A stretch of DNA of 64,000 nucleotides from Albidovulum aestuarii. GTDB lineage: Bacteria > Pseudomonadota > Alphaproteobacteria > Rhodobacterales > Rhodobacteraceae. How positions within the stretch are numbered: position 1 is the first letter of the stretch; each line of letters starts with the position of its first letter. The position numbers and the translations under genes were made by a program. The notes below the pieces were generated by a model that saw nothing but the letters and a program-made list of their open reading frames with translations, did not search any database and was not told the DNA's origin. The stretch spans positions 127,501-191,500 of the forward strand of contig NZ_JASBQQ010000007.1 of the NCBI RefSeq assembly GCF_029961185.1, in the 5' to 3' direction. Of this stretch, positions 17,009 through 33,379 are shown piece after piece.

Positions 17009-17718
17009 TTTTCGTCCGGTGCCACCGTCAGGGCCACCCGGTCCCCTGCGAACCAGCTAATCCCGTATTCTACCGGTTGCCCGTCGCTATCCACATTGAC
17101 CGCTTCGGTCCTGAGGATCGGCGCGCCTTCGGCTACCTTCAGAAGTCCCGCCCTTGGTCCGCGCGCGATCTTCGCGGCAATCCGCGTGGATGCGCGGGTA
17201 TAGTCTGCGACCCCCATTTCGGCCAAGGCGGCGGTGACCGATTTCAACCGGCCAAGCGCCTCGGGCAAGGCCGGAAACCGTTTGGCCGGAAAGACCGAAC
17301 GGAAGAGGCTGAGCGGCAGCGCATCGCCAAGCGAGATGCCTTCGAAGACATGCACCTGGTCGGTTCCCAGAACACCCGCCTCCGTCTTGGTGGCAGGACG
17401 CGTTTCGATCCGGATCACCTCGCGCGAGGGGGTTCGACCGCTTGCACTCACGTTCTGCTGGAACCGCACCCTACGGCCAAGCGCATAGTCCGCAGGCGGC
17501 GCGGCAGCGACAAAGACCCCGGCGCCGCGGCGCGACACAGTCAGCCCCGCCCCGGCGAGGTCCGACAGCGCATGGCGCACCGTATGGCGGTTGACCCCGA
17601 AACGGGCGGAAAGCCCTGCCTCGGTCGGGAGTTTTGCACCCTCCGGATAAAGCCCTGCACCGATCTCGGAGCGGAGTGTTTCGGCGATCATGCGCCAGAC
17701 GGGTGCGGACTTTGTCAT
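17005..17718 (-). CDS. phnF: GntR-family repressor PhnF
   Basis: A 237-residue HutC-subfamily regulator. The winged helix-turn-helix occupies residues 8-70 ('LPTEAGLSARFGVNRHTVRHALSDL') and a UTRA ligand domain follows. ATG 17718 gives the family's usual length; an upstream TTG would add twelve residues with no ribosome site. It lies divergently from phnG with an inverted-repeat operator between them, so it probably represses phnG-N and itself and is released by a phosphonate-pathway metabolite. Confidence 0.9.
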   Translation of the reverse strand: MTKSAPVWRMIAETLRSEIGAGLYPEGAKLPTEAGLSARFGVNRHTVRHALSDLAGAGLTVSRRGAGVFVAAAPPADYALGRRVRFQQNVSASGRTPSREVIRIETRPATKTEAGVLGTDQVHVFEGISLGDALPLSLFRSVFPAKRFPALPEALGRLKSVTAALAEMGVADYTRASTRIAAKIARGPRAGLLKVAEGAPILRTEAVNVDSDGQPVEYGISWFAGDRVALTVAPDEN

Positions 17719-17758: not shown

Positions 17759-17786
17759 TTGTCTAGTTGTATAGAAAACTAGACAA
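17759..17786. promoter_or_regulatory. PhnF operator
   Basis: Perfect 10-base arms 'ttgtctagtt' (17759-17768) and 'aactagacaa' (17777-17786) around an eight-base centre, ending nine bases before the phnG start. The arms contain the GTMTAKAC-like half-sites typical of HutC-type GntR proteins. The position would block the phnG promoter and could also touch phnF. Confidence 0.75.
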
Positions 17787-17795
17787 GTTCGCAAG

Positions 17796-18242
17796 ATGTC
17801 GACACAGATGACCAAGACGAATGACAGACAGGCGCGCATGGGCCTTCTGGCCCGCGCCGAACCGGCCCGGCTGGCTGCCCTGATGCCCGACCTGCCGCCC
17901 CATGACTGGCTGCGCGCGCCCGAAACCGGCGCGGTGATGGTGCAGGGGCGGGTTGGTGCCACCGGCGGGGCCTTCAACCTCGGAGAGATGTCGGTCACGC
18001 GCTGCGCGCTCCGGCTCAAATCCGGCGCGGTGGGTCATGCCTATGTGCAGGGCCGGGACCGCGATCATGCGGCGCGCGCGGCGGCCATCGACGCGCTGAT
18101 GCAGGGGCCTTCGGCCGAGCGGATCGAGGCCGATATTCTTTCACCCCTTCGGCGGGATGAAGCGGGCCACCGCCGTGTCCGGGCCGAGAAAGCCGCCGCA
18201 ACCAAGGTCGAGTTTTTCACCATGGTCAGAGGGGAGGATTGA
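17796..18242 (+). CDS. phnG: C-P lyase core subunit PhnG
   Basis: A 148-residue subunit of the PhnGHIJ core complex, which attaches the phosphonate to ribose 1-position of ATP and then cleaves the C-P bond. The family block 'NLGEMSVTRCALRL' and 'GHAYVQGRDRDHA' are present, and the C-terminal 'KVEFFTMVRGED' is intact. It is the first gene after the PhnF operator. Confidence 0.95.
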   Translation: MSTQMTKTNDRQARMGLLARAEPARLAALMPDLPPHDWLRAPETGAVMVQGRVGATGGAFNLGEMSVTRCALRLKSGAVGHAYVQGRDRDHAARAAAIDALMQGPSAERIEADILSPLRRDEAGHRRVRAEKAAATKVEFFTMVRGED

Positions 18243-18815: not shown

Positions 18816-19901
18816 ATGTATGTCGCGACAAAAGGCGGCGAGCGCGCCATTGACGCCGCACATGACTGGCTGGCCGAGGAACGACGGGGCGATCCCGCCG
18901 TTCCCGAACTCACCATCGCGCAAATCCGCGAACAGATGCGGCTCGCGGTCAACCGGGTCATGGCGGAAGGCTCGCTCTACGATCCCGACCTTGCTGCATT
19001 GGCGATCAAGCAGGCGCGGGGCGATCTGATCGAGGCGATTTTTCTCGTTCGGGCCTACCGTACCACGCTGCCGCGCTTCGGGTCGTCCCACCCGGTGGAA
19101 ACCTGTGACATGGCGATCACCCGGCGCATCTCGGCCACGTTCAAGGACGTGCCGGGTGGGCAGGTTCTTGGCCCCACCTTCGACTACACGCACCGCCTGC
19201 TCGACTTCAAATTGATGGCCGACGGCGAGGCCCCAACAGCCGCCCGCAAGCCCGCCGATCCGGAGCCCGCGCCACATATCCTCGCCTTACTGGACCGTGA
19301 CGGGCTGATGGAGCCGCTGGCCCACGACGGTGCCACGCCGCGCGACCTGACGCGCGAGCCGCTGGAACTGCCCGCCGACCGTCCTCTGCGCCTTCAGGCC
19401 CTGACGCGCGGCGATGAGGGGTTCCTCCTCTCGCTCGCTTATTCCACCCAGCGCGGCTATGGGCGCACGCATGCCTTCGTCGGCGAGCTGCGCATTGGCA
19501 CCTGCGCGGTCGAGATGGAGATCCCAGAACTCGGCTTCGCGGTCGAGATCGGCGAGATCGAACTGACAGAATGCGAGACGGTGAACCAGTTCACCGGATC
19601 AAAGACCGAGCCGCCGCAATTCACGCGCGGCTACGGCCTTGTCATGGGGCAATCCGAGCGCAAGGCGATTTCCATGAGCCTCGTCGAGCGTGCATTGCGG
19701 TGGGAGGAACTGGGCGAGGAAAATACCGGCGCGCCTGCGCAGGATACGGAGTTTGTCCTCTACCACTCCGACAACATCCAGGCGACCGGGTTCCTCGAAC
19801 ATATCAAGCTGCCCCACTACGTCGATTTCCAGTCGGAACTGGAGCTTATCCGCAAACTGCGTCGCGCCGTCGCTCCTGAAAGACTGGAGGCCGCGGAATG
19901 A
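18816..19901 (+). CDS. phnI: C-P lyase core subunit PhnI
   Basis: A 361-residue core subunit; with PhnG, PhnH and PhnL it catalyses displacement of adenine from ATP by the phosphonate. It starts 'MYVATKGGERAIDAAH', and the conserved tail holds 'ARGYGLVMGQSERKAISM'-type sequence and 'YHSDNIQATGFLEHIKLPHYVDFQ'. It begins one base after phnH and overlaps phnJ by four bases. Confidence 0.96.
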   Translation: MYVATKGGERAIDAAHDWLAEERRGDPAVPELTIAQIREQMRLAVNRVMAEGSLYDPDLAALAIKQARGDLIEAIFLVRAYRTTLPRFGSSHPVETCDMAITRRISATFKDVPGGQVLGPTFDYTHRLLDFKLMADGEAPTAARKPADPEPAPHILALLDRDGLMEPLAHDGATPRDLTREPLELPADRPLRLQALTRGDEGFLLSLAYSTQRGYGRTHAFVGELRIGTCAVEMEIPELGFAVEIGEIELTECETVNQFTGSKTEPPQFTRGYGLVMGQSERKAISMSLVERALRWEELGEENTGAPAQDTEFVLYHSDNIQATGFLEHIKLPHYVDFQSELELIRKLRRAVAPERLEAAE

Positions 19902-20770
19902 CCGAACACGCCTACAACTTCGCCTATCTTGATGAGGCGACCAAACAGATGATCCGCCGCGCAATCCTGAAGGGGCTTGCCATTCCCGGATATCAGGTTC
20001 CCTTCGCCAGCCGCGAAATGCCGATGCCTTACGGCTGGGGTACAGGCGGCGTTCAGGTAACGGCCGCCTGCCTTACGCCCTCCGATACGCTGAAGGTCAT
20101 CGATCAGGGGGCGGATGACGCCACGAATGCTGTGTCGATCCGCAAGTTCTTCGAACGCACTGCCCGTGTCGCAACCACGACCGCGACGGCGGAGGCGAGC
20201 GTCATTCAGACCCGGCACCGCATACCCGAGGAAAGGCTCAGTGAAGGCCAGATCCTCGTCTATCAGGTGCCGATCCCCGAACCGCTACGTTTTCTCGAAC
20301 CGCGCGAAAGCGAGACCCGGCGCATGCATGCGCTGGAGGAATACGGGCTGATGCATGTGAAACTTTACGAAGATATCGCGCGGCATGGCGAGATCGCGAC
20401 TTCTTACGCCTATCCGGTGAAGGTCGAGGAGCGATATGTCATGGACCCTTCCCCGATCCCGAAATTCGACAATCCGAAACTGTCGGGCATGGCCGCGATC
20501 CAGTTGTTCGGCGCAGGACGCGAACAGCGCATCTATGCTCTGCCGCCCTATACCGAGGTGGTGAGTCTCGATTTCGAGGACCACCCGTTCGAACCGATGA
20601 AGGCCGATCACGACTGCGACCTTTGCGGTGCGGGGGAGAGTTACCTTGACGAGCTCATCACCGACGATGCGGGCGGGCGGATGTTTGTCTGCTCCGACAC
20701 CGATTTTTGCGCCGCCCGCCGGGCCGGGGGTCATCGCGGGCGTCTGGTCCCGGAAGGAGACGCCGCATGA
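19898..20770 (+). CDS. phnJ: radical SAM C-P lyase PhnJ
   Basis: A 290-residue catalytic subunit that breaks the C-P bond of ribose-1-phosphonate-5-phosphate using an iron-sulfur cluster and SAM. The cysteines that hold the cluster and the catalytic thiyl are all present: Cys240, Cys243, Cys265 and Cys271 in 'CDLCGAG...FVCSDTDFC'. The glycine-radical site corresponds to Gly31 in 'LAIPGYQVPF'. Nothing essential is missing, so the pathway should be active. ATGA overlaps on both sides. Confidence 0.97.
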   Translation: MTEHAYNFAYLDEATKQMIRRAILKGLAIPGYQVPFASREMPMPYGWGTGGVQVTAACLTPSDTLKVIDQGADDATNAVSIRKFFERTARVATTTATAEASVIQTRHRIPEERLSEGQILVYQVPIPEPLRFLEPRESETRRMHALEEYGLMHVKLYEDIARHGEIATSYAYPVKVEERYVMDPSPIPKFDNPKLSGMAAIQLFGAGREQRIYALPPYTEVVSLDFEDHPFEPMKADHDCDLCGAGESYLDELITDDAGGRMFVCSDTDFCAARRAGGHRGRLVPEGDAA

Positions 20771-21579
20771 CTGCGCATGATCCCCACATCGGCGCGATGA
20801 CTGCCGCAATCGATATGCCATTGTTGAGCGTCGGCGGACTGACCAAGACTTACGGCTCCGGGCGCGGCTGCGCCAATGTCAGCTTCGACCTGTGGCCCGG
20901 TGAAGTACTGGGAATCGTCGGCGAAAGCGGTTCGGGCAAGTCAACGCTGCTTGGCTGCCTTGCCGGGCACATACGACCCGATGCGGGCCGCGTGGTTTAC
21001 GACCTTGATGGTCACGCCCGTGACACTGTCTCGATGGCGGAACCGGATCGACGGCGGCTGTCGCGCACAGAATGGACGTTTGTACACCAGAACCCCCGGG
21101 ACGGGCTGCGCATGGGGGTTTCGGCGGGCGGCAATGTCGGCGAAAGGCTGATGGCCGTAGGTGCCCGGAATTACGGCGCGATCCGCGAGACAGCGACCGA
21201 TTGGCTGGAACGGGTGGAGATCGCGGCCGACCGCATCGATGACCGTCCGCGCGCCTTTTCCGGCGGCATGCAGCAGCGCCTCCAGATCGCGCGCAATCTG
21301 GTGACCGGCCCCCGGCTGGTCTTCATGGACGAACCCACGGGCGGGCTCGATGTCAGCGTGCAGGCCCGGCTTCTCGACCTTCTGCGCGGCCTTGTCCGCG
21401 ATATGGGCCTGTCGGTGATCATCGTCACCCATGACCTTGCCGTCGTCCGGCTTCTGGCCGACCGGCTAATGGTGATGAAGGACGGCCGCGTGATCGAAGA
21501 GGGGCTGACCGATCAGGTCCTCGACGATCCGCAGGCCGCCTATACCCAGCTCCTCGTCTCCTCCGTCCTGCAGGTGTGA
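20767..21579 (+). CDS. phnK: C-P lyase ABC-type subunit PhnK
   Basis: A 270-residue ABC-family ATPase that binds the PhnGHIJ core rather than a membrane permease. Walker A 'GESGSGKST' is at 52-60; 'FSGGMQQRLQIARNL' and 'LVFMDEPTGGLDVSVQARLLDLLR' follow. ATG 20767 overlaps the phnJ stop by four bases; two further ATGs (20797 and nearby) are possible but less well placed. Confidence 0.95.
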   Translation: MTAHDPHIGAMTAAIDMPLLSVGGLTKTYGSGRGCANVSFDLWPGEVLGIVGESGSGKSTLLGCLAGHIRPDAGRVVYDLDGHARDTVSMAEPDRRRLSRTEWTFVHQNPRDGLRMGVSAGGNVGERLMAVGARNYGAIRETATDWLERVEIAADRIDDRPRAFSGGMQQRLQIARNLVTGPRLVFMDEPTGGLDVSVQARLLDLLRGLVRDMGLSVIIVTHDLAVVRLLADRLMVMKDGRVIEEGLTDQVLDDPQAAYTQLLVSSVLQV

Positions 21580-21582: not shown

Positions 21583-22266
21583 ATGATCGAGATCGAGAAC
21601 CTGTCGAAGCATTTCACCCTGCACAATCAGGGCGGTGCAGTCATACCGGTAATGGCGGGGGCGGAACTCCAGGTCAGCCCTGGCGAATGTGTTGCGCTGA
21701 CCGGCCAGTCGGGGGCGGGCAAGTCTACACTGATGCGGATGATCTATGGCAACTACCTTTCCGCGGGCGGGACGATCCGGGTGAACGGGACCGACATCAC
21801 CCGCGCCACTCCACGCGAGATCATCCGGCTCAGGCGCGAGGCGCTCGGCTATGTCAGCCAGTTCCTGCGCGTCGTGCCCCGCGTACCGACCCGCGCGGTG
21901 GTGGCTGAGCCCCTGCTGGCCCTCGGAACTGATACCGCTACAGCCTATGCCCGCGCCGAGGAATTGCTAGCGATGCTCAACATCCCCGAACCACTCTGGT
22001 CGCTCTCACCCACGACCTTTTCGGGCGGCGAGCAGCAGCGCGTGAACATCGCCCGTGGCTTTGCCCATCAATACCCGGCGATGCTGCTGGATGAACCCAC
22101 TGCTTCGCTCGACGTGAATAACCGTGAGGTCGTGCTGACGCTTATCCAAAAGGCAAAGGCGCAGGGTGCCGCGATCATCGGCATCTTTCATGACGAAGCC
22201 GCGCGGGCGCGGGTCTGCGACCGCGAGGTCGATGTGACCCGCTTCACCCCCGCGCAGGCTGCGTGA
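21583..22266 (+). CDS. phnL: C-P lyase ABC-type subunit PhnL
   Basis: A 227-residue ABC-family protein needed with PhnGHI for the nucleotide displacement step. Walker A 'GQSGAGKST' is at 41-49; 'FSGGEQQRVNIARGF' and 'AMLLDEPTASLD' are present. Typical PhnL sequence 'YVSQFLRVVPRVPTRAVVAEPL' distinguishes it from PhnK. It begins three bases after phnK. Confidence 0.95.
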   Translation: MIEIENLSKHFTLHNQGGAVIPVMAGAELQVSPGECVALTGQSGAGKSTLMRMIYGNYLSAGGTIRVNGTDITRATPREIIRLRREALGYVSQFLRVVPRVPTRAVVAEPLLALGTDTATAYARAEELLAMLNIPEPLWSLSPTTFSGGEQQRVNIARGFAHQYPAMLLDEPTASLDVNNREVVLTLIQKAKAQGAAIIGIFHDEAARARVCDREVDVTRFTPAQAA

Positions 22267-22267: not shown

Positions 22268-22816
22268 ATGGCGCGCTTTGGTCAGCTTGTCGCTCTTGTC
22301 GGTCCCTCGGGCTCAGGCAAGGATACGTTGCTGGCCGGTCTCGCCCGCGCCTGCCCCGACCTCCATGTCGCCCGCCGCACCATCTCGCGCCCGGCCTCGG
22401 CGGAAACCGAGCCCTATGAGAGTGTCATCCCCGAACAATTCGCAGCCCTCCGCGCGGACGGGGCCTTTGCGCTCCACTGGCAGGCGCATGGGCTTTTCTA
22501 CGGAATCCGCCACCGGGAACTCGTCCCGCTTCAGGATGGACGGGTCGTCATTTTCAATGGCTCGCGCAGAGCGCTTCCCGGAATCATCGCCTATCAACCC
22601 GACGTCCGGGTCATCACGGTAACCGTGCCGCCCGACCTTCTCGCGGCCCGCCTTGCCGCGCGCGGGCGCGAGGATGCCGACGAGATCGCCGCGCGGCTGA
22701 AACGCACGGACCTTGCACTGGCGGGCCATCTCACCTCGGGCGTGGTGTGGAATGACGGCACGCCGGAGGAAGGCATCGCCCGGCTGGTCGAATTGCTTCA
22801 GCCGGTCAACGCGTGA
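22268..22816 (+). CDS. phnN: ribose 1,5-bisphosphokinase PhnN
   Basis: A 182-residue guanylate-kinase-like enzyme that phosphorylates ribose 1,5-bisphosphate to PRPP, returning the ribose carrier to nucleotide metabolism. Walker A 'GPSGSGKDT' is at 12-20 and the 'RTISRPASAETEPYES' substrate loop follows. It starts one base after phnL. Its last 19 bases overlap the convergent DUF1045 gene. Confidence 0.92.
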   Translation: MARFGQLVALVGPSGSGKDTLLAGLARACPDLHVARRTISRPASAETEPYESVIPEQFAALRADGAFALHWQAHGLFYGIRHRELVPLQDGRVVIFNGSRRALPGIIAYQPDVRVITVTVPPDLLAARLAARGREDADEIAARLKRTDLALAGHLTSGVVWNDGTPEEGIARLVELLQPVNA

Positions 22817-23475
22817 CGGGACATCAGATGGAACTGCCCCGCCTCATCCTCACCGAAAAGGCAGATATCCTCAATCCGGAAAGGCCCGGACAGATGAGGG
22901 CCGAACCAGGCGCGCGCGGTGGATTCGATTTCCGCCAAATCTCCGGTGACGGGTCCGGTCAGTGTCAGATGAAAGCGAAATTCTTCCAGCACGTAGGGAT
23001 AGCCATAGGTGTCGAGCAGGGCCCGTTGCCGTGTCGTCAGGCTGTCCGGGCAGCGGCGTGCATACTCGGCCGCAGTCAGGGGGGCGCGGAAGGGCTCGAA
23101 GGCATCGATGATCCGGGCGGCCAGCGCAGCGATACCTTCGACAGGCTCGTCCGGAACCAGCGCAAGAAACCGGCCGATCCGGGCGACCGACAGCCCGCCC
23201 GCCGTGACCGGCGCGAGGGTCGCGGCGAGATCCGAAACTGCGGTGTTGAGTGCATCCGCGTCCGCCCCCTTCAACCGGAACGGTGGCTTCAGCGTGCCGT
23301 GAAATCCGTAACGGCGCGGCTCTGCAGTCAGCGCAGGCAAGTCGAGGCCGACGAAAGCCGGTTGCGCCGCGGCCCGGTCTTGCAAAGCGTCCCGGCCCAG
23401 CCAGGAAGCCGCCGCATCGGCAAAGGCGCCGTCCCTGGGCGCATAGTAGATCGCATAGCGTGTCATCACTCTCAT
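22798..23475 (-). CDS. DUF1045 2H-phosphoesterase-like phosphonate protein
   Basis: A 225-residue protein of the family found in C-P lyase clusters. Two H-x-T motifs, His59-Gly-Thr and His169-Leu-Thr, are the catalytic pair of the 2H phosphodiesterase superfamily. No phnP gene is visible in the cluster, so this may open the 5-phosphoribosyl 1,2-cyclic phosphate left by PhnJ; that substitution is inference. Start is ATG 23475 ('ggag' four bases upstream) or ATG 23466 three codons later. Divergent from phnM. Confidence 0.82.
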   Translation of the reverse strand: MRVMTRYAIYYAPRDGAFADAAASWLGRDALQDRAAAQPAFVGLDLPALTAEPRRYGFHGTLKPPFRLKGADADALNTAVSDLAATLAPVTAGGLSVARIGRFLALVPDEPVEGIAALAARIIDAFEPFRAPLTAAEYARRCPDSLTTRQRALLDTYGYPYVLEEFRFHLTLTGPVTGDLAEIESTARAWFGPHLSGPFRIEDICLFGEDEAGQFHLMSRHALTG

Positions 23476-23495
23476 TCAGCTCCAGTCGCACAGAC

Positions 23496-23515
23496 ATGTC
23501 ACCGCCATGTGACAT
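23496..23515. promoter_or_regulatory. inverted repeat in the DUF1045/phnM divergent promoter
   Basis: Perfect 7-base arms 'atgtcac' and 'gtgacat' with a six-base spacer, in the 83-base gap between two divergent genes. Read with 11-base spacing it also resembles a degenerate Pho box (nine of fourteen positions). Either a PhoB site or another dimeric regulator's operator. Confidence 0.4.
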
Positions 23516-23558
23516 TCTCCTGCCACAGAAACGCTGACCAGACCGAACGGAGCCAGCA

Positions 23559-24701
23559 GTGACCGAAACCGTCCTTGCCAATGCCAAGATCGTCCTTCCG
23601 ACGGAGGTCATCTCCGGTTCGCTTGCCCTGCGGGACGGGGTGATCACCGACATCGCCCAAGGCGCAACGGTCCTGCCCGGCGCGATCGATTGCGAAGGCG
23701 ATCTGGTGATGCCCGGTCTGATCGAACTGCATACCGATAACCTGGAACGCCACATCCAACCCCGGCCGGGCGTTGACTGGCCGCATGCCACGGCAATCCT
23801 TGCCCACGATGCCGAGCTTTGCTCGGTTGGCATCACGACGGTCTTTGACGCGCTTCGCGTGGGTTCTGTCTTTTCCAACGACCGGTCGCATTATGGGGAA
23901 TATGCCCGGCAGGTCGCCAGTGAACTTTTGGACCTGCGCGACCGCGAGGCGCTGAGGATCAGCCACTTCATCCATCTGCGCGCTGAGGTCTGTTCCGAAA
24001 CGCTGATTGACGAGCTGGAAAAGTTTGGCCCGGATGACCGGGTTGGTATCGTCAGTCTCATGGACCATACGCCGGGCGAGCGCCAGTTCCGAGATGTGGA
24101 AAAACTGCGCGACTATATCTGCGGCAAACACGGGCTGTCGGCGGATGAGTTCTCGGCCCACGTCGCCAGCCAGATCGCTTTGAAGGAAGAGGTTGGCGCA
24201 CGTCACGAAGCGGCTGCTGTCGCGGCTGCGCGCCGTTACGGCGCTGTACTCGCGTCACACGACGACACGACCTCCGATCAGGTTGCCTGTTCGGCCGCGC
24301 ATGGCGTTCATTTTGCCGAATTCCCGACCACGGTCGAGGCAGCGGACGCCTGCCGCCAACAGGGTATCGCAGTGATGATGGGCGCGCCCAACCTGATCCG
24401 GGGCGGTTCGCATTCCGGCAATGTCGCAGCGCATGTCCTGGCAGAGGCGAACCTGCTCGACATCGTCTCATCCGACTACGTTCCCTCGTCGCTTCTGGGC
24501 TCGGCTTTGTTCCTGGGTGACCTCTGGGGCGACGTAGCGCGCGGCATCCGTACCGTTACCGCCCATCCGGCCGAGGCCGTCGGCCTGAGTGACCGTGGGC
24601 GACTGGAACCCGGTGCGCGCGCCGATTTGATCCGGGTGCGGCGCACAGCCGGATCTGGCGCGGTACATGGCGTCTGGGTGTGGGGTGTACGAGTCGGGTA
24701 A
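23559..24701 (+). CDS. phnM: phosphonate triphosphate hydrolase PhnM
   Basis: A 380-residue amidohydrolase-superfamily enzyme that removes pyrophosphate from 5-triphosphoribosyl-1-phosphonate, the product made by PhnGHIL. Metal-binding 'GLIELHTDNLERH' is at about 53-65, with further conserved 'SLMDHTPGERQF', 'LASHDDTT' and 'SSDYVPSSLL'. The start is GTG 23559 with 'ggag' upstream; no ATG fits. It has its own promoter and runs into the convergent btaB, with 12 bases between stops. Confidence 0.94.
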   Translation: MTETVLANAKIVLPTEVISGSLALRDGVITDIAQGATVLPGAIDCEGDLVMPGLIELHTDNLERHIQPRPGVDWPHATAILAHDAELCSVGITTVFDALRVGSVFSNDRSHYGEYARQVASELLDLRDREALRISHFIHLRAEVCSETLIDELEKFGPDDRVGIVSLMDHTPGERQFRDVEKLRDYICGKHGLSADEFSAHVASQIALKEEVGARHEAAAVAAARRYGAVLASHDDTTSDQVACSAAHGVHFAEFPTTVEAADACRQQGIAVMMGAPNLIRGGSHSGNVAAHVLAEANLLDIVSSDYVPSSLLGSALFLGDLWGDVARGIRTVTAHPAEAVGLSDRGRLEPGARADLIRVRRTAGSGAVHGVWVWGVRVG

Positions 24702-24713
24702 ACCGGGCGGACC

Positions 24714-25382
24714 TCAGAACTGAGCCCCGATTTCGCGCCGCCGCATAAGAACCCCTGACTGGGCATAACCGCGATAGAGACTTTCTGTTTGTGCCGTGCT
24801 GCCGGTTTCGTCGGCGACGCAGGTCAATACGCTGCCAAAATCATCTCGCGGCGTGACGTGGAACTTGCGTAACCAGGCCCGAAGGCCGGTGCGGAACCAG
24901 TTGGGCAGGCCAGACTGTGTGCCAAAATCGACAATGTGCAACTCCCCTCCTGACGCAAGATGCCGCGCCGCCTCAGCCAGTGCGCCGTGCCAGTCAGGTA
25001 TCATCGACAGGCTGTAGGACAGGACGATGCGGTCGAAACCTGCGACACCGAACAGCCGCGCTGAATCGAACCGGCAGGCATCTGCTTGCGCCAGAGCCGC
25101 CGTGCCATCGAGCTTCGTTCGCGCCGAGCGTAGCATCTCCTCCGAGATGTCGAGCCCGTAAAGTCGGCATTCGGGATAGGTCCGGCCGATCCGGTCGAGG
25201 TTGCGCCCGGTACCGCAGGCAATCTCCAGTATCCGCGATCCGGGTGGTGGCGCGAGACGGGCAATGAGGCGGTCGCGGCCCAGAAGGTAGTAGCGGCGCG
25301 TCAGATCATAAAACAGCCTCTGGTGCCGGTAGGTGGCATCCATTAGCGCTGCGTGGGCAAGCGAGTTCTCCATTCCGTTCAT
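24714..25382 (-). CDS. btaB: betaine lipid N-methyltransferase BtaB
   Basis: A 222-residue class I SAM methyltransferase. The SAM site 'ILEIACGTGRN' is at 51-61, with 'LYGLDISEEML' and 'VLSYSLSMIPDW' behind it. Coupled by a four-base overlap to btaA, it should add three methyl groups to diacylglycerylhomoserine to give the betaine lipid DGTS, acting at the inner membrane. Without btaA beside it, this would only be callable as a generic methyltransferase. Confidence 0.88.
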   Translation of the reverse strand: MNGMENSLAHAALMDATYRHQRLFYDLTRRYYLLGRDRLIARLAPPPGSRILEIACGTGRNLDRIGRTYPECRLYGLDISEEMLRSARTKLDGTAALAQADACRFDSARLFGVAGFDRIVLSYSLSMIPDWHGALAEAARHLASGGELHIVDFGTQSGLPNWFRTGLRAWLRKFHVTPRDDFGSVLTCVADETGSTAQTESLYRGYAQSGVLMRRREIGAQF

Positions 25383-26614
25383 GCCTTCAGCCGGTAGAGG
25401 TGAACGCCGCCATAGATCGCCGACCGGTCGGTCGCCAGCGCCGCCTTCGACCGTTCAACGTCGTAGTCCCAGCGGGCAAGGGTCGCTGCTGAAACCCGGC
25501 CGGGCAGGATGTCGGCCGCTCCTCCAGTCCTGAACAGGACCCGCGCACCTGGCGCGGCTGTCCGGGTGATCTGTTCCCAAAGTGCGTTCAACTGGGCGTC
25601 CGTCATCCAGTCCTGCGCATCGAGCAGGACATAGCAATCCCGTGAGGCCGCCTTTTCCGCGGCCAACAGATCGGTCAGCGAGCGGTTCGTTACCCGCACC
25701 CGAGAGGCAGCGTCGCGAAGTCCCGCGAAGTTCTCAGGCGAGAGATAGGGAGGGACGGCGCGGTTTTCGGCCTCGGCATAGCCGCGGTGGAAGGCCTGCC
25801 AGGCGAAGTAGTTGTCCGAGATCGGAAAATCGCAGATGAGCTTGCGGGTGCGTTCGCGCAGGACGGGTATCACATCGCCCCCGGCATCGGCGGCAAGTTT
25901 TTCGTACTGCGCTGGAGGGATGCCGAGGCCAAAGAGCGACGCCCGGCGGCGGGCGAGGAAACGGATGAGCGGCTTGTCGTACAAAGGTGCGATGCGGGTA
26001 TCGAAAAAGGTTCGCTGCTCGTCCAGCGTCCGCGCGGACAAGAGCGGTCGGAAATCGACACCGCCAAGACGCGCGATCAGATGCACCGCCGCGATGAACC
26101 GGCCCAGCAGGCCGAAACGATAAAAGCCGCGTTCGAACATCGCGATGCGGCGGCGCCCATAGGGGCGCGCCTCCCAATAGCGCCGGGTTTCGGCATCGAG
26201 TGCGGGCGCAATCAGGCGGTCATAGACGGCGGCGTTGCCCTTGCAGTCGGCCCGACCAAAGAATGCATAGAAACTGGAATGGTCGGGCAGTGTGAAGGCA
26301 GCCGCGATCTTGAGCTTCAGGAGCGCGACATGGGCGGGCGAGAGATCGACGGCGGTGATAGAACGGGGATGCGCAGTCAGATAAGACATCACGTTGCAGC
26401 CGCCCGACGCGATGCAGACCATGCGGTCTTCCGGGCAAAGATCCAGCGCGACCATATCGGCGACCGGGTCTTCCCATATCTGGGGATAGACGAGGCCCTC
26501 GAATAGCCGCGCAAAGATCCGCTCCAGCAAACCGGTCGTGCTCAGCGCGGAATTCTGGTGAACGGCCGAACCGATCTGGTCGGTGAATGCCGGGGAATAA
26601 CTAATCTCGCTCAT
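25379..26614 (-). CDS. btaA: S-adenosylmethionine:diacylglycerol 3-amino-3-carboxypropyltransferase BtaA
   Basis: A 411-residue DUF3419-family protein. It moves the aminocarboxypropyl group of SAM to diacylglycerol, giving diacylglycerylhomoserine, the first step of DGTS synthesis. Family blocks are 'LVYPQIWEDPVADMVALDL', 'IASGGCNVMSYL' and 'ITAVDLSPAHVALLKLK' at the N-terminus and a second SAM-like fold from about residue 290. ATG 26614 overlaps the plcP stop; the upstream open frame lies inside plcP and is rejected. DGTS replaces phospholipid during phosphate limitation in alphaproteobacteria. Confidence 0.93.
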   Translation of the reverse strand: MSEISYSPAFTDQIGSAVHQNSALSTTGLLERIFARLFEGLVYPQIWEDPVADMVALDLCPEDRMVCIASGGCNVMSYLTAHPRSITAVDLSPAHVALLKLKIAAAFTLPDHSSFYAFFGRADCKGNAAVYDRLIAPALDAETRRYWEARPYGRRRIAMFERGFYRFGLLGRFIAAVHLIARLGGVDFRPLLSARTLDEQRTFFDTRIAPLYDKPLIRFLARRRASLFGLGIPPAQYEKLAADAGGDVIPVLRERTRKLICDFPISDNYFAWQAFHRGYAEAENRAVPPYLSPENFAGLRDAASRVRVTNRSLTDLLAAEKAASRDCYVLLDAQDWMTDAQLNALWEQITRTAAPGARVLFRTGGAADILPGRVSAATLARWDYDVERSKAALATDRSAIYGGVHLYRLKA

Positions 26615-27435
26615 GCGGCCTCGCGTTTTTTCCGGCGCTGCGCGCGCCGATTGACGAATGATGGATTGAGGATGTTCCGGGGGGCGAACTGTGTACCAGC
26701 ACGCGTCTCGGAGGCCCAGTCGATCAGGTGCAGTGTCCCGTCGTCCCGCTCGACGACGGCAGTGCAGCTTTCGACCCAATCGCCCGTATTGACATAGTCC
26801 AGATCGCCGATCCGGCGCATATTTGCGCTGTGGATATGCCCGCATATGATGCCGTCATAGCCACCCCGGCGGGCCTCGTCCGTCAGGACCTGTTCATACT
26901 CGCTGATGTAGTTGACCGCGCGCTTGACCTGCTGCTTGGCCCAGTTCGACAATGACCAGTATTGCCCACCCCAAAGCCGCCGCGCCCGATTGAACCAGAT
27001 ATTCAGCCACAGAGCGAATTCATAGGCGCGGTCACCCACATGCGCGAGCCATCTGGCGTTCACGACGATCGAGTCGAACTGGTCCCCGTGTGTTACGAGG
27101 AAACGCCGACCATCGGCCGTGACGTGTTCGGCCTCTGCCACAACCTCCACCCCGCCGAAGTGCGTACCGAGATAAGATCGCATGACCTCGTCGTGATTGC
27201 CCGGAATGAAGATGATCGAGGCACCGTCATGCGCTCTGGCCAAAAGAGATTGTACCACGTCGTTGTGTGACTGTGGCCAGTGCCAACCACGGCGCAATTG
27301 CCAGCCATCGACGATGTCACCGACAAGGTAGTAGGCTTCGGCTTCATTCTGTTTCAGGAAGTCGAAAAGAAGCTCCGCCTGGCAGCCCCGCGTGCCTAGA
27401 TGCGTGTCAGAAATAAATATGGTACGGAATTTCAT
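26611..27435 (-). CDS. plcP: PlcP-type phospholipase C (metallophosphoesterase)
   Basis: A 274-residue calcineurin-like phosphoesterase, often labelled UDP-2,3-diacylglucosamine diphosphatase. Metal ligands are all present: Asp10-x-His12, Asp40, Asn80-His81, His116 and His200-x-His202. Sequence phrases such as 'SDTHLGTRGCQAELLFDFL' and 'LVGDIVDGWQLRRGWHWPQSHNDVVQ' match PlcP proteins that strip head groups from phospholipids under phosphate stress, leaving diacylglycerol. Here it is cotranscribed with btaA and btaB, which use that product, so I prefer PlcP over LpxH. Start ATG 27435; GTG 27441 is an alternative. Confidence 0.85.
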   Translation of the reverse strand: MKFRTIFISDTHLGTRGCQAELLFDFLKQNEAEAYYLVGDIVDGWQLRRGWHWPQSHNDVVQSLLARAHDGASIIFIPGNHDEVMRSYLGTHFGGVEVVAEAEHVTADGRRFLVTHGDQFDSIVVNARWLAHVGDRAYEFALWLNIWFNRARRLWGGQYWSLSNWAKQQVKRAVNYISEYEQVLTDEARRGGYDGIICGHIHSANMRRIGDLDYVNTGDWVESCTAVVERDDGTLHLIDWASETRAGTQFAPRNILNPSFVNRRAQRRKKREAA

Positions 27436-27481: not shown

Positions 27482-27499
27482 GCTACAGGATTGTGACGG
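27482..27499 (-). promoter_or_regulatory. candidate Pho box upstream of plcP
   Basis: On the minus strand 'ccgtcac-aatc-ctgtagc' has the 11-base repeat spacing of a PhoB box, matching nine of fourteen consensus positions, 47-64 bases before the plcP ATG. PhoB control is established for plcP in rhizobia, so a site here is expected. Confidence 0.4.
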
Positions 27500-27623
27500 A
27501 CGCAGAACAGCGTGCACTAATTCCACCATGTTAAGTTTGTGGAACAAGCCCCCGGCGGTTCAAGTGGCCATGCTTCATCCACTGTGGGACCCGTTATCCG
27601 GCTCGGACGCTTGGATTGATGCT

Positions 27624-29036
27624 TTAAATCGGCGCGTCTATCAAAGGCCACAGTTCCTCGATCATATCCGCGAGATGCTTGGCGTGTGAGATGTCGGAGT
27701 CCTGAGACGTCACTGACAGCCTCAGGACGGTCCGCCCCTTCCACTCAGCCGTTTTGACGAACTGGGACTGCTGGGCGTTCAATCGTTCGGCAATCCCGAG
27801 GATTTTCCGGTGCTCGTTCTTTCGGTCGTGGCAACCGATAACGATTTGATTGAGTTCGACCTTGTTCAGGATCGAAAGTCCTTCGACCCGAATGATGCGT
27901 TCGGCCAGGTATGCGGCTGCATCACAATGACGATCGACCAGCGCGGCAACACCTTTGCGCCCAAGGCTTCGTATCACTGCCCAAACCGCAAATCCCATTG
28001 CTCGGCGCGACAAACCTGGCGTGTAGTCAGAAGGGTTGCGTCCGTCCTCATCATCCACGTTCAAGTAGCCTGCAGTTTTCTGCATCGCTCCTCGGTGGGT
28101 GTTCTGGTTCCGGACAATAGCGAAACCGGACCCATACGGAACCTGAAGCCATTTGTGTCCGTCCACGGACCAGCTGTCGGCAAGCTCTGCCCCTACCGTC
28201 AACCCCTTCTTGCTTTCAGTGGCCCTGGCCCAAAGACCAAATGCTCCGTCGACGTGCATCCATGCATCGTGCATACGAGCGATGGCCGCAATCCGTTCCA
28301 GGGGCTCGAATCCGCCCGAGTTTATGTGCCCGGCCTGCGCTACGATGATCTTCGGACCTTCGTACCGGGCAACAGCGTCTGCCAGATCCTCCGGTCGCAT
28401 CAGCCCGTCGTCGTTTGACGGCAACCTGTGGATATTGGTGTCTCCAAAACCGAGCTGGCGTAGCGCCATGAAGTTTGTCACATGCGCGTCATCGCTGAGG
28501 AAGATGTGCACGACCGGCGCGCCCTGAAGTCCCAGTGCCGCGAAATCATGACCGCAACGCCGGAGTACCTCGCCACGTGCAGCGGCGAGACCGACGAATG
28601 CGGCCGTGGTTGCGCCACTGACAAAGCCGACCGAACTGTCGCGCGGCAGGTCGAGCAATTCCAGCAGCCACGCTTCAACCGCTTCCTCTGCAATCGCAGC
28701 GGCAGGTGAGGATTGGTAGATCGCCGCATTCTGCCCCCAGGCGGCGGTGATCCAGTCGGCGGCAACACCGACCAGGTTCGACCCGCCCATGACCCAGGCA
28801 TAGAAGTTTGGGTCAGTATTGCCGACCAGACCCGGCTCCGCCGCCGCGATCAGTTCGTCGATCACCCGGGCGCCGGGATACCCGTCATCGGCGAGGGGCA
28901 GGCAGAAGCGTTCCCTGAGTGCGGTTGCTGACGCGGAGGCGCTGATCGGGTGGATTTCGTTCCGATAGTCCCGCGCGTAAGTCGCCGCGCGGATCAGAAC
29001 ATCGGCCGGGATAAGATGGGCAAGTGCCTGTGCCAT
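27624..29036 (-). CDS. PLP-dependent decarboxylase (group II amino acid decarboxylase family)
   Basis: A 470-residue fold-type I PLP enzyme. Lys295 in 'SVDGHKWLQVPY' forms the Schiff base; Asp263 in 'WMHVDGAFGLWA' binds the pyridine nitrogen, and 'FVSGATTAAFVGLAAAR' binds the phosphate. The family includes aromatic L-amino-acid, glutamate and tyrosine decarboxylases; the substrate is not readable. It starts 13 bases after the cysteine synthase-glutaredoxin gene and closes that operon. An intergenic stretch of 182 bases separates it from the plcP start. Confidence 0.87.
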   Translation of the reverse strand: MAQALAHLIPADVLIRAATYARDYRNEIHPISASASATALRERFCLPLADDGYPGARVIDELIAAAEPGLVGNTDPNFYAWVMGGSNLVGVAADWITAAWGQNAAIYQSSPAAAIAEEAVEAWLLELLDLPRDSSVGFVSGATTAAFVGLAAARGEVLRRCGHDFAALGLQGAPVVHIFLSDDAHVTNFMALRQLGFGDTNIHRLPSNDDGLMRPEDLADAVARYEGPKIIVAQAGHINSGGFEPLERIAAIARMHDAWMHVDGAFGLWARATESKKGLTVGAELADSWSVDGHKWLQVPYGSGFAIVRNQNTHRGAMQKTAGYLNVDDEDGRNPSDYTPGLSRRAMGFAVWAVIRSLGRKGVAALVDRHCDAAAYLAERIIRVEGLSILNKVELNQIVIGCHDRKNEHRKILGIAERLNAQQSQFVKTAEWKGRTVLRLSVTSQDSDISHAKHLADMIEELWPLIDAPI

Positions 29037-29049
29037 GTCGGTCTCCGAT

Positions 29050-30552
29050 CTACCGGGGATGCATCCATCCGGGCAGAAACCCGTAGGGATTAGCCGTCTT
29101 GCTGTCGTCGAAACTGAGGCCGATAGCGTTCAGCCTTTTAGCCATAGAGCCATCCTTGAACCCGTCGAAGGTTTCCTTCGCCCCGCCGACATGCGTACCG
29201 CCCACAAAAATTTGCGGAATGGTTGGTACGCCGGTCCTGACCCCCAGCGCGGCCCTGAGATCGCCGCCCAAGTTGTCCGTCTGCATCGCGGCGGCATCGA
29301 GTTCTACTGCGTGATAGGGCACACCCGCTGCTGCAAAGAGCTTGCGCACCGACCAGCTGAATTCACACCATTCCAGGACGAACATCACGACAGGATGCTG
29401 CGCGACGATCTCGTCAACCATCTCTGCGGCCTCAGGCTTGCAGGTCGGTGCGGCCGCAGAGGCCACGGGCGCGGAGGCTGCGTTGTCGAACCGGGCGCCG
29501 GGTGTGGACCGCGACAGCGCAATCTCATCGTCGCTCATTTCCTCCTCGATGCCATCGAACAGGACCGTGGACATGTAGCGTTCGCCGGTATCGGGCAGCA
29601 TCGCAACGATGCGTGCGCCTTTGGGGGCGGTCTTCGCCACCTCCAGCGCGGCGGCGAAGGTTGCACCGGCGCTGATGCCGCAGAAGATGCCCTCCTGCGC
29701 TGCAAGATCGCGTGCCGCTTGCAGCGCGGCATTGCCGGCGACCGGCTGGAATGCGTCAATCGCGCCCGCGCTGACGGCGTCTTCGGCGAGTTTGGCGATG
29801 AAGTCCGGCGACCAGCCCTGCATAAGGTGGGGGCGAAACATCGGGTGACTGGCCGGGCGGCCGTCTGCATCCCGCTCCTGCGCGATTCCGCTCTGTATCA
29901 GCGGGACGTTGTCCGGCTCTGCCACGACGATCCGCGTCTTTGGGCATTCGGCGCGCAGGACCCGAGAGACGCCTTTCAGGGTGCCGCCGGTCCCGAAGCC
30001 CGTCACCCAGTAATCCGGGCCCTGCCCGCCAAAGGCGTCGACGATTTCCCGCGCGGTGGTGCGGGAATGCATGTCGGCATTGGCCTCGTTCTCGAATTGC
30101 CTTGCAAGGAACCAGCCGTGTTCGCGGGCCAGTTCTTCGGCCTTGGCGAGCATGCCCGTGCCCTTCTGCGCGGCGGGCGTCAACACGACCTTCGCGCCAA
30201 GAAACCGCATCAGCTTGCGCCGCTCGACGCTGAAGCTTTCTGCCATTGTGACGACCAGCGGATAGCCCTTGGCTGCGCAGACCAGCGCAAGGCCAATGCC
30301 GGTATTTCCCGACGTCGCTTCGACCACAGTTTGGCCGGGTTTCAATGCGCCCGATGCCTCTGCCGCCTCGATGGCCGCCAAAGCGAAGCGGTCCTTCACC
30401 GATCCGCCGGGATTGAAAGCCTCGACCTTGACGTAAAGCTCCACACCTTCGGGTGCGAGCCGGTTGATCCGGACGATCGGCGTATTCCCGATCGTGTCGA
30501 GGATGGAGCCGTAAAGCGCCGGGGCGGTTTGGAGAACGGGTTTCATCTGCAT
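29050..30552 (-). CDS. cysteine synthase A fused to a monothiol-type glutaredoxin
   Basis: A 500-residue fusion. Residues 11-335 are a complete cysteine synthase (O-acetylserine sulfhydrylase): PLP-binding Lys53 in 'GGSVKDRF', 'SGNTGIG' at 81-87, 'GTGGT' near 187 and 'GISAGAT' near 292. A linker (336-380) joins a glutaredoxin domain (381-480) with active site C396-E-F-S and the cis-proline loop 'GVPTIPQIF'. It should make cysteine from O-acetylserine and sulfide while the glutaredoxin handles glutathione-linked thiols. Start ATG 30552 has 'aagga' upstream; a longer frame lacks a ribosome site. Confidence 0.9.
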   Translation of the reverse strand: MQMKPVLQTAPALYGSILDTIGNTPIVRINRLAPEGVELYVKVEAFNPGGSVKDRFALAAIEAAEASGALKPGQTVVEATSGNTGIGLALVCAAKGYPLVVTMAESFSVERRKLMRFLGAKVVLTPAAQKGTGMLAKAEELAREHGWFLARQFENEANADMHSRTTAREIVDAFGGQGPDYWVTGFGTGGTLKGVSRVLRAECPKTRIVVAEPDNVPLIQSGIAQERDADGRPASHPMFRPHLMQGWSPDFIAKLAEDAVSAGAIDAFQPVAGNAALQAARDLAAQEGIFCGISAGATFAAALEVAKTAPKGARIVAMLPDTGERYMSTVLFDGIEEEMSDDEIALSRSTPGARFDNAASAPVASAAAPTCKPEAAEMVDEIVAQHPVVMFVLEWCEFSWSVRKLFAAAGVPYHAVELDAAAMQTDNLGGDLRAALGVRTGVPTIPQIFVGGTHVGGAKETFDGFKDGSMAKRLNAIGLSFDDSKTANPYGFLPGWMHPR

Positions 30553-30583
30553 CTCTCTTATCCTTTTGATATAGCGTGTTCGG

Positions 30584-31156
30584 TCATGCAGCCGGGGCCG
30601 CACCCGCATCCGCGGCCATGTGGATTTCGTGGTGAACGACCTGCGCGTCGCGGAGCGCGAGGTACCAGGGGTCTACTGACAAGGCACGGTCAACGAGGTT
30701 CTGGACCGTGGCGCGGTCCTCGTCGGTGTCGATTTCGATCCGTATCCGAGATTCCAGCGGTGCAGCGGTGCGCGGGCTCAGCCCCATCAGCGCGGCATCG
30801 TCGAAATCGCATTCGATCGTTACATCGACCGACCGGAAGACGAGCCCTTCGCGCGCGGCCATCATCTTCACGCCGATAGCGACGCAACCGACGACACCGG
30901 CACGGGCAAAAAATCCCGGGCTTGGCCCGGCAGCGTCGCCACCCATGGCCCGCCCCATATCCATGGTCGCGTGATACTTGCCCTGCGCGGCGTGGCAGGT
31001 CAGGCCATCTTCGACCCGCCCACGTGTCACGATGGTATTGCAGGCGGCATCGAGGTCTTTGCGCATCCGGTCGATCACGACGGTCTGCGCCTGCCGGATC
31101 ACCTCATCCCGCGCGGGCATCAGTGTCGTATCGTTATCGGGGTTCATCATGGTCAT
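30584..31156 (-). CDS. OsmC-family protein (first of two)
   Basis: A 190-residue OsmC/Ohr-fold protein. Cys54 ('GLTCHAA') and Cys91 ('GVVGCVAIG') are the only candidates for the redox pair, and the central helix 'GVKMMAAREGLVFRSVDVTIE' is typical. OsmC proteins reduce organic or hydrogen peroxides through two cysteines, though some members have lost this. ATG 31156 follows 'aaggaga'. It lies between the flavin oxidoreductase and the cysteine synthase fusion with short gaps. Confidence 0.75.
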   Translation of the reverse strand: MTMMNPDNDTTLMPARDEVIRQAQTVVIDRMRKDLDAACNTIVTRGRVEDGLTCHAAQGKYHATMDMGRAMGGDAAGPSPGFFARAGVVGCVAIGVKMMAAREGLVFRSVDVTIECDFDDAALMGLSPRTAAPLESRIRIEIDTDEDRATVQNLVDRALSVDPWYLALRDAQVVHHEIHMAADAGAAPAA

Positions 31157-31168
31157 AGGTATCTCCTT

Positions 31169-32404
31169 TCAGGCCGCAGAGCGGCCGCGTGTGCAAAGAA
31201 TGTGATCGGCAAGGGCGGTCGCATCGGCGCCGACGCCATCGATGAGGGCAGAGTTGCGCTGTCGCATGAACGGCAGGCCGAGGACGTAGAGTCCCGGAGC
31301 GACCAACCCTTCCCGGTGCATCAGCGCGCCCTTGCGGTCAAAGACCGGCAGGTGCAGCCAGCTGTAGTCAGGCCGGAACCCGGTCGCCCAAAGAATTGTG
31401 CGGATGTGGCCCCTGCCGAGATAAAGCGAAAGGCGCGATGAGGCGGGGCAGGGCGTTGCGGCAAAGCGTTCGACGGGGCCGACACCACTGAGGCCGGTGT
31501 CCTCGGCCCAGGCATCCAGCGTGTCGAGCAACCGGTTCATCTTCAGATCCGAGAGCGCGCAGTGATTGTGCAGCGCACCGGAAAAGAGCGCAGTGCCGTC
31601 GCGGACAGCGCTGAGACGACCGACGATCTCGACGCCTTGCGCTGCGAGGCTGCTCAGATCGCAAAAGCGCTGGGCATGAGAGCCGATGAGTTGCAAGGAT
31701 GGCACCCGGCGGGCCCGGTCGATGTCATCGACCTCGTCGACCTGCATGGTTTGAATGCCTGCGCGATCCATCCACCACTGGATGTCCCGTCCGCGATAGT
31801 GGCGCGGCATGCGGATATGTTCACCGGCGGAAAGAATGACCTCATGTCCGGCGGCGCGGATTTCGGCGGCAAGCTGGACACCGGTTGCCGAGGCACCGAC
31901 CACCAGAACGCCACCCGGCGCGAGTTGGTCGGGGTTGCGGTAGTCGAGCGCGGTGATCTGGTCGACCCGCGACGGGATATCCGCCGCCAGTGCAGGCACC
32001 GAAGCCACGTTGCAGGCCCCGGTGGCCAATATGAGCGTGCCACAGTTCCAGTCGCCCCGGTCGGTCGCAACACGGTAGCCGTTGTCGAGCCGCGTGACCG
32101 AGAGCACACGGGTGCGGTCCTCGACCGTTGCCCGGCTTGCGGTGGCGTAGTCGTTCAGGAAACGAGTAACCTCAGGCATCGACATGAAGCCGTCCGGGTC
32201 GTCGCCCTGATAGGCGAAGCCGGGCAGGCGGCTTTGCCAGTTGGGGGTCAAGAGCCGCAGGCTATCCCACCGCTCATGCCGCCATGAATTCGCGATCTCG
32301 CCACGCTCCAAGACGACATGGGGAATGTTGCGGTCCGACAGGCAGCGGCTCATCGCGAGGCCGGCCTGACCGGCGCCGATGATGAGGGTTCCAATGCGTT
32401 TCAT
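31169..32404 (-). CDS. FAD-dependent oxidoreductase, flavin monooxygenase-like
   Basis: A 411-residue cytoplasmic flavoenzyme with two dinucleotide folds: 'IIGAGQAG' (8-15) for FAD and 'VVGASATG' (168-175) for NAD(P)H. 'LRLLTPNWQSRLPGF' and 'ILATGACNVASVP' are typical of the CzcO/YUCCA-like monooxygenase group, which includes sulfide- and thiol-oxidising members. Its neighbours are two OsmC proteins and a cysteine synthase, so a sulfur-containing or reactive-carbonyl substrate is plausible; that is inference. Confidence 0.82.
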   Translation of the reverse strand: MKRIGTLIIGAGQAGLAMSRCLSDRNIPHVVLERGEIANSWRHERWDSLRLLTPNWQSRLPGFAYQGDDPDGFMSMPEVTRFLNDYATASRATVEDRTRVLSVTRLDNGYRVATDRGDWNCGTLILATGACNVASVPALAADIPSRVDQITALDYRNPDQLAPGGVLVVGASATGVQLAAEIRAAGHEVILSAGEHIRMPRHYRGRDIQWWMDRAGIQTMQVDEVDDIDRARRVPSLQLIGSHAQRFCDLSSLAAQGVEIVGRLSAVRDGTALFSGALHNHCALSDLKMNRLLDTLDAWAEDTGLSGVGPVERFAATPCPASSRLSLYLGRGHIRTILWATGFRPDYSWLHLPVFDRKGALMHREGLVAPGLYVLGLPFMRQRNSALIDGVGADATALADHILCTRGRSAA

Positions 32405-32432
32405 GGGTCTTGCTCCTGTCGGACCGGCGGGG

Positions 32433-32999: not shown

Positions 33000-33058
33000 T
33001 TTCGTTCCTTTCGGGGGTCTTGTGTCTGTTCTTCTTAGGTTGAGGGGATGGCCGGATG

Positions 33059-33090
33059 CTCCGGCCGGAGATGGCGGGCCTTCTGGCCCG
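33059..33090 (-). terminator. paired hairpins after the 50-residue peptide gene
   Basis: A 12-base palindrome 'ctccggccggag' (33059-33070) next to a 6-pair stem (33075-33080 with 33085-33090). They lie just after the peptide stop and before osmC. There is no T run, so partial attenuation or processing is more likely than full termination. Confidence 0.4.
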
Positions 33091-33096
33091 ACGCAT

Positions 33097-33249
33097 TCAG
33101 TGATGCCGTCCACCCAGTCGGGGCTTAGCAAATTGCTGGCTGCGTTCTGCGTACCAGCGGCGGGATGTGTCGTTCGGGATCAATCCCGAAAGCCCGTCAA
33201 AGCCGCTGCCATAGCCGGGCCTGCGGTCTTTCTTCATCATGTCGTCCAT
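33097..33249 (-). CDS. 50-residue hypothetical protein leading the OsmC/CysK operon
   Basis: ATG 33249 has a strong 'aaggaaag' ribosome site six bases upstream, and the frame is open for 50 codons. The product is polar and basic, begins 'MDDMMKKDRRPGYGSG', contains 'DTSRRWYAERSQQF' and has no cysteine or membrane segment. It is the first gene of the operon, divergent from the winged-helix regulator, and is followed by hairpins. I do not recognise the family; a small regulator or accessory protein are both possible. Confidence 0.6.
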   Translation of the reverse strand: MDDMMKKDRRPGYGSGFDGLSGLIPNDTSRRWYAERSQQFAKPRLGGRHH

Positions 33250-33373: not shown

Positions 33374-33379
33374 GGTTTT

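Follow-up and report, generated by a model that had tools for sequence, protein, structure and literature searches.

A predicted betaine-lipid operon beside a C-P lyase cluster in Albidovulum aestuarii

Why do genes for the replacement of membrane phospholipids lie next to genes for the use of phosphonates? The question is raised by a 64-kb window (the whole stretch of DNA analyzed) of Albidovulum aestuarii, contig NZ_JASBQQ010000007.1, positions 127,501-191,500 (GCF_029961185.1), in which plcP, btaA and btaB run towards phnM, the final gene of a carbon-phosphorus (C-P) lyase cluster. The three lipid genes very probably constitute an operon of the Pho regulon that serves to replace membrane lipids, with the phn genes under the same signal. 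The best reading is that two Pho-regulon modules, which have clustered more than once, lie side by side here and do not form one pathway; the clustering would reflect shared selection or joint transfer. The lipid operon itself is already published, and the new point is a modest one: its close neighborhood with a C-P lyase cluster, which recurs in some relatives. Both the lipid pathway and its joint control with phn by PhoB are established in a relative, so the added knowledge concerns genome organization.

The lipid operon and the identity of PlcP

The operon and its upstream site are listed below (ORF, open reading frame; SAM, S-adenosylmethionine; DGTS, diacylglyceryltrimethylhomoserine).

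26611-27435, minus strand: plcP, ORF matching PF00149 (Metallophos) with 52 bits; predicted phospholipase C releasing diacylglycerol
25379-26614, minus strand: btaA, PF11899 with 357.8 bits over residues 37-408; predicted SAM:diacylglycerol 3-amino-3-carboxypropyl transferase
24714-25382, minus strand: btaB, Methyltransf_25 (a generic model) with 60.9 bits; predicted SAM-dependent N-methyltransferase completing DGTS
27482-27510, minus strand: candidate PhoB box of plcP, CTGTTCT-N4-CCGTCAC-N4-CTGTAGC; 9/500 shuffles of the intergenic region score as high

The gene plcP stands immediately 5' of btaA, followed by btaB on the same strand, which is the layout known as type 1. A direct sequence check found ATGA overlaps on the minus strand between plcP and btaA (26611-26614) and between btaA and btaB (25379-25382). 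The genes phnM and btaB are convergent, with 12 bases (24702-24713) between their stops. Gene coordinates, overlaps and gap are exactly those given by the original prediction, which had been made from the sequence alone. The interval that it proposed, 22798-27435, does contain the three genes but begins within the phn cluster, at the DUF1045 gene. Its estimate of about 15 kb for the whole island agrees with the 15.1 kb from phnC to plcP; a phytase-like gene at 9986-12145 may stretch the island to ~17.4 kb.

PlcP could alternatively be an LpxH-type enzyme of lipid A synthesis, in which case the operon would not serve lipid replacement. LpxH models are the best NCBIfam matches of PlcP, and the eight PDB sequences matched at E 0.001 are all LpxH; the best has E 2.6e-7, and seven cover only approximately the first 120 residues. 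The scores on these models, however, stay far below the cut-offs (44.3 bits vs. 134 and 41.2 vs. 190.35). LpxI is the usual alphaproteobacterial enzyme for that step of lipid A synthesis, and a homologue encoded in the same genome (LpxI_C, 142.8 bits, cut-off 25, genome profile search) would cover it. The genome search returned a single PlcP match, with no second PlcP. The motif GNHDE is kept in 48/49 PlcP relatives, whereas two aligned LpxH chains read GNRD. At least 48 of these 49 relatives retain the core residues of the metal site: S9, D10 and H12, G39, D40 and D43, GNHD at 79-82, HGD at 116-118 and GHIH at 199-202. Moreover, plcP overlaps btaA, close plcP relatives adjoin btaA in 48/89 loci, and the role of plcP in DGTS formation has been demonstrated in Phaeobacter MED193 (text passages of PMC4796936). 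An LpxH identity, rejected on the model cut-offs, the presence of LpxI and the alignment with LpxH, is extremely improbable, in line with the phospholipase C originally proposed.

A different metallophosphoesterase, 31-35% identical to PlcP, occupies the place of plcP just 5' of btaA in five loci (L080, L091, L094, L096 and L120), belonging to Loktanella, Yoonia, Roseibaca and two metagenome-assembled genomes (MAGs). It carries GNHD and GHFH motifs and possibly replaces PlcP within the operon there.

BtaA matches PF11899 (DUF3419) nearly from end to end, residues 37-408 corresponding to model positions 5-384 of 385 (1e-106), and transfer of the aminocarboxypropyl group to diacylglycerol is its predicted activity. 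No PDB chain is similar to it by sequence at E values up to 1. BtaB matched no BtaB-specific model, only the generic SAM methyltransferase family. In the SAM-site-like motifs of BtaA, the S, C and N of ASGGCN and the D, L and H of VDLSPAH are invariant in 89 relatives; in BtaB, the E, G, T, R and N of EIACGTGRN are invariant in 88, and the remaining positions of these motifs vary. The reading of plcP-btaA-btaB as a phospholipid-to-betaine-lipid operon is thus supported by the scores of PlcP far below the LpxH cut-offs, by the LpxI homologue, by the full-length DUF3419 match of BtaA and by the Pho-box-like repeat before plcP.

DUF3419 matches occur in 29/198 genomes of a family sample (27 over the cut-off) and are of two kinds. 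The long type, the only one in the window's own genome, was found in 15 genomes (326-372 bits) and is followed 3' by a btaB relative wherever the contig extends far enough. The short type was found at 14 loci (162-196 bits), and in two cases the genome encodes a long-type protein as well; a genome of the same genus, G010, has the short type only. Short-type proteins (L045-L058) are 25-28% identical to BtaA in 11/14 loci matched by tblastn. No plcP or btaB match lies alongside them and no phn match was found, only generic ABC (ATP-binding cassette) transporter matches at 29-35% identity.

The C-P lyase cluster and phosphate control

On the other side of the 12-base gap lie the phn genes, in the order phnC-D-E-E, hexT, phnF (minus strand), phnG-H-I-J-K-L-N, DUF1045 (minus strand) and phnM:

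23559-24701, plus strand: phnM, NF011984 with 532.2 bits, cut-off 260
23496-23513, plus strand: candidate PhoB box between DUF1045 and phnM, ATGTCAC-N4-ATGTGAC; 0/500 shuffles
22798-23475, minus strand: DUF1045 phosphoesterase-like protein of phn operons, PF06299 with 179.8 bits, cut-off 24.3
22268-22816, plus strand: phnN, TIGR02322 with 159.7 bits, cut-off 156
21583-22266, plus strand: phnL, TIGR02324 with 311.2 bits, cut-off 256.3
20707-21579 (ORF), plus strand: phnK, TIGR02323 with 387.4 bits, cut-off 302.85
19898-20770, plus strand: phnJ, C-P bond cleavage, PF06007 with 472.9 bits
18816-19901, plus strand: phnI, PF05861 with 537.5 bits
18239-18814, plus strand: phnH, PF05845, and TIGR03292 over its cut-off
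17796-18242, plus strand: phnG, PF06754, and TIGR03293 over its cut-off
17759-17786, no strand: candidate PhnF operator, perfect inverted repeat TTGTCTAGTT-N8-AACTAGACAA
17005-17754, minus strand: phnF, GntR-type regulator, TIGR02325 with 197.6 bits, cut-off 156.8
16391-17008, plus strand: hexT, phn hexapeptide-repeat transferase, TIGR03308 with 287.7 bits, cut-off 201.65
12365-16386, plus strand: phnC, phnD, phnE and phnE, phosphonate transporter, TIGR02315, TIGR03431 and twice TIGR01097, all over cut-off
12263-12280, plus strand: candidate PhoB box upstream of phnC, CTGTCAT-CCGG-GGGTTAC; 14/500 shuffles
9986-12145, minus strand: phytase-like (PF13449) choice-of-anchor protein, 194.3 bits, divergent from phnC

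All genes of the phn cluster exceed the curated cut-off of at least one family model; for DUF1045, TIGR03223 falls just short (248.7 bits, cut-off 248.95) and the Pfam cut-off is passed. The true start of phnK is probably later than that of the ORF, because the family match starts at residue 38. The description of the C-P lyase cluster as complete holds for phnG, H, I, J, K, L and M, which the family profile searches all found, but not for PhnP, as no PhnP-family protein in the genome exceeds the cut-off (best 36.3 bits, cut-off 272.25). This cyclic phosphodiesterase is not present in every phn cluster, and DUF1045 may take its place.

Control by phosphate, as first proposed, is supported by Pho-box-like repeats before plcP, phnM and phnC and by PhoB-dependent induction in Phaeobacter MED193. 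In that strain, phosphate loss raises PlcP, BtaA, PhnI, PhnJ, PhnL, DUF1045 and PhnM, and the same proteins are undetected in a phoB mutant (PMC10132767, Table 1, in which BtaB is not listed). A search upstream of plcP yielded a candidate Pho box by sequence resemblance, CTGTTCT-GCGT-CCGTCAC-AATC-CTGTAGC, read from 27510 down to 27482; the repeat before phnM (23496-23513) reads ATGTCAC-CGCC-ATGTGAC. Within the whole window, the phnM, plcP and phnC sites rank 2nd, 7th and 14th; hence, unrelated places score equally well. A more independent check used 48 related plcP upstream regions, with the window left out. Among ten spacings, the 11-base spacing of half-sites gave the top mean score (9.44 vs. 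7.60-8.16), in 33/48 regions the best site falls 61 to 80 bases 5' of plcP, and at most 5/100 shuffles score as high in 22/48. The candidate of the window thus has counterparts in many relatives. Against phosphate control count the failure of the shuffle test in the other 26/48 regions and the score itself, built from hand-weighted half-sites of the consensus and set after the plcP and phnM sites had been seen. Of the ten loci with phn neighbors, three pass (L042, L043 and L126) and seven fail, including all five of Hoeflea.

The gap between phnF and phnG holds a perfect 10-base inverted repeat, TTGTCTAGTT-N8-AACTAGACAA, proposed from its sequence as a candidate PhnF operator. Such perfect repeats occur at 10 places in the window (overlapping matches merged by eye), and none lies between plcP and 27623. 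In three Hoeflea loci, the phnG/phnF gap reads TTGTCTATTTATCTAGACAA, with the same TTGTCTA/TAGACAA ends at a different spacing.

Enzyme activities and regulation in the A. aestuarii strain are deduced from sequence and by analogy. When phosphate runs out, PhoB would activate plcP-btaA-btaB, and PlcP would cut phospholipids into diacylglycerol and a phosphorylated headgroup. BtaA would then add the aminocarboxypropyl group of SAM to the diacylglycerol, and methylation of the product by BtaB would yield DGTS, a betaine lipid. The same signal would act on the convergent phn genes, with PhnF acting in addition on the core, and these genes would provide phosphorus from phosphonates. The lipid and phn modules would have a common regulator and position, not a common metabolite.

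Recurrence of the neighborhood

The btaA loci compared comprise 80 named ones (the best 80 of 592 relatives) and, from the family sample, 14 long-type stretches. Five duplicates (L062, L077, L079, L085 and L089) were dropped, leaving 89 long-type loci; btaA has a close plcP next to it in 48 of them and lacks one in 41. The 14 short-type loci and the two window flanks are not part of this count. Among the 41 are the five loci where the metallophosphoesterase of 31-35% identity precedes btaA, together with L037, which has a 41% identical one farther off, and L123, which has a 58% identical PlcP ~5 kb away. The fetched flanks contain phn genes in 10/48 loci with a close plcP vs. 1/41 without (p 0.0095), counts that are lower bounds because flanks differ between loci and the contigs of L043 and L082 end in phn genes.

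Five of the ten loci, those with the phn core, are from Hoeflea. Here, phnGHIJKL-hexT-C diverge from phnF, which lies directly before plcP, and phnD is also present in four of the five fetched flanks. The others differ in their junctions: phnC and phnD lie 3' of btaB on the same strand (L043), phnC diverges from plcP (L082), DUF1045 directly precedes plcP (L083, Poseidonocella), phnN directly precedes plcP (L126), and DUF1045 and phnM lie 7 kb off (L042, genome G125). The sole phn case without a close plcP, L037 (G091), has phnCDEE beside btaAB. Neither G125 nor G091 has a phnJ match, and their phn pieces may be remnants of a C-P lyase since lost or have other uses. A BtaA tree of 90 rows requires at least seven gains or losses of the phn label, five of them forced by well-supported branches; together with the differing arrangements, this makes repeated reassembly of phn genes beside plcP-btaA likely.

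At the level of genomes, the two systems occur together. In the family sample, phnJ is present in 11/15 genomes with long-type btaA vs. 89/198 overall (p 0.03). In a class sample, PlcP is found in 51/65 PhnJ genomes vs. 138/385 overall; the 51 genomes with both give a hypergeometric p of 1e-14, with kinship ignored. Close linkage is another matter, and several counts weigh against a neighborhood kept by selection. Long-type btaA and phnJ share a contig in only 1/11 family genomes, the window itself. Of the 51 class genomes, two have PlcP no more than 20 kb from PhnJ: that of the window, with 6.7 kb between the starts, and G222, with 10.8 kb; for the other 50 genomes, the one case seen compares with ~0.47 expected. 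With Hoeflea collapsed to one, the phn neighbors drop to 6/44 vs. 1/41, which is not significant (Fisher p 0.11). Co-occurrence is therefore strong and tight linkage rare, and a general tight PlcP-PhnJ linkage is not borne out. The comparison of btaA neighborhoods that had been suggested shows an adjacency that is not general (1/11 in the family) but recurs in some relatives, with phn genes flanking plcP-btaA in 10/48 related loci.

These counts bear on whether chance alone brought two common Pho-regulon sets into contact here, with no selection for linkage, which is a serious if somewhat unlikely possibility. Besides the collapsed Fisher test and the single G222 among 50 genomes, it is favored by G010, which lacks both phnJ and long-type btaA. 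The differing phn junctions across lineages (Hoeflea, L043, L082, L083, L126 and L042) argue against it, as does a rough and crude Poisson null, calculated as (cluster size + flank)/genome size and tripled for scattered phn pieces, which expects 0.4 to 1.2 cases where 6 were seen. When the 14 short-type loci are added to the controls, the collapsed comparison becomes 6/44 vs. 1/55 (p 0.04). Draft assemblies also hide some linkage, because only 16/51 class genomes have PlcP and PhnJ on one contig. In the family, btaA and phnJ of the other ten pairs are on separate contigs, and adjacency is possible in G131, G171 and G166, where btaA lies on a contig of just 4.6 to 6.0 kb; in G166, phnC and phnD directly follow btaB on its 3' side. 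The excess over chance is only moderately supported.

A metabolite link would go further than shared control: PlcP or neighboring phosphoesterases would free phosphonate headgroups from phosphonolipids for the C-P lyase. The single phn genes right before plcP (DUF1045 in L083, phnN in L126) would fit such a link, but phn genes are absent from the fetched flanks of 38/48 plcP-btaA loci, and the phn pieces near btaA in G091 and G125 occur without phnJ, so that this explanation is very unlikely. It is also quite unlikely, though less so, that alphaproteobacterial lineages have repeatedly and independently put together a phosphorus island out of plcP-btaAB, C-P lyase genes and the gene for the phytase-like protein, with phn regulation (PhnF by plcP, as in Hoeflea) also feeding into lipid replacement. 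If this were true, phosphonate supply and membrane phosphorus demand would be set together. Two clustered Pho-regulon modules remain the preferred reading. The earlier idea of two phosphorus-sparing strategies joined in one island stands as far as shared position and probable co-regulation go; nothing shows more than that.

Neighboring genes and known systems

The phytase-like protein has a signal-peptide-like start and is probably secreted, as judged from its sequence; the start was moved by eye from 12223 of the ORF to the ATG before that stretch. Its relatives are found between phnC and btaB (L037, 69% identity), divergent from plcP (L063, 68%; L041, 61%) and after btaB (L088, 57%), positions that suggest a candidate unrecognized member of the Pho regulon. 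The word phytase is absent from the text of PMC10132767.

Further away, a gene at 29050-30609 encodes a fusion of cysteine synthase with glutaredoxin, next to OsmC-like and FAD (flavin adenine dinucleotide) genes; L087, a MAG locus of Ahrensia, has a relative of the cysteine synthase part ~4.7 kb away from plcP. Compared with G010, the right flank (27600-40600) is syntenic only from ~35160 on. The left flank shares short pieces only and, near a contig end, a 97% identical block at 1334-3004, which stands out in this otherwise poorly conserved flank and is perhaps a mobile element.

The btaAB genes of Rhodobacter sphaeroides, reportedly described by Klug and Benning in 2001, are said to form an operon with only btaAB. 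BtaA is followed there by the methyltransferase BtaB as in the window, where plcP heads the operon in addition. With other phn operons, the cluster shares the phnGHIJKL core, phnM, phnN, phnF, phnCDE and DUF1045; it differs in ending convergent on a lipid operon and in the lack of a PhnP over the cut-off in the genome.

Type 1 contexts, plcP followed by btaA and btaB, are described for several strains, including Phaeobacter MED193, in which deletion of plcP abolishes DGTS and plcP restores it; putative Pho boxes are reported in plcP clusters as well (text passages of PMC4796936). In ocean metagenomes, plcP serves as a marker of phosphate deficiency beside the C-P lyase (text passages of PMC6852614). 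The adjacency of plcP-btaAB and phn does not appear in the text passages of these two papers or of PMC10132767, although it may be shown in their figures or supplementary material, such as Supplementary Table S2 of PMC4796936.

Among the loci compared, those of Hoeflea (L110, L112, L124, L128 and L131) resemble the window in that the phnG to phnL core adjoins plcP-btaA-btaB. In Hoeflea, phnF is directly 5' of plcP on the same strand, with phnG onward divergent, whereas in the window phnM converges on btaB. A functional tie between phn and lipid control is most testable in Hoeflea. In the window, phosphorus scavenging and phosphorus sparing are encoded within 15 kb, and the genomes gathered here form a set where both could be studied together. 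The type 1 operon of MED193 has the same gene content and order as the window, and DGTS is formed there under phosphate loss (text passages of PMC4796936). Its locus tags, 17359 (plcP), 17364 and 17614-17649 (phnI-phnM) in text passages of PMC10132767, suggest that plcP and phn are in the same region, about 50 tags apart if tags are counted in steps of five, in comparison with the 12 bases between phnM and btaB in the window.

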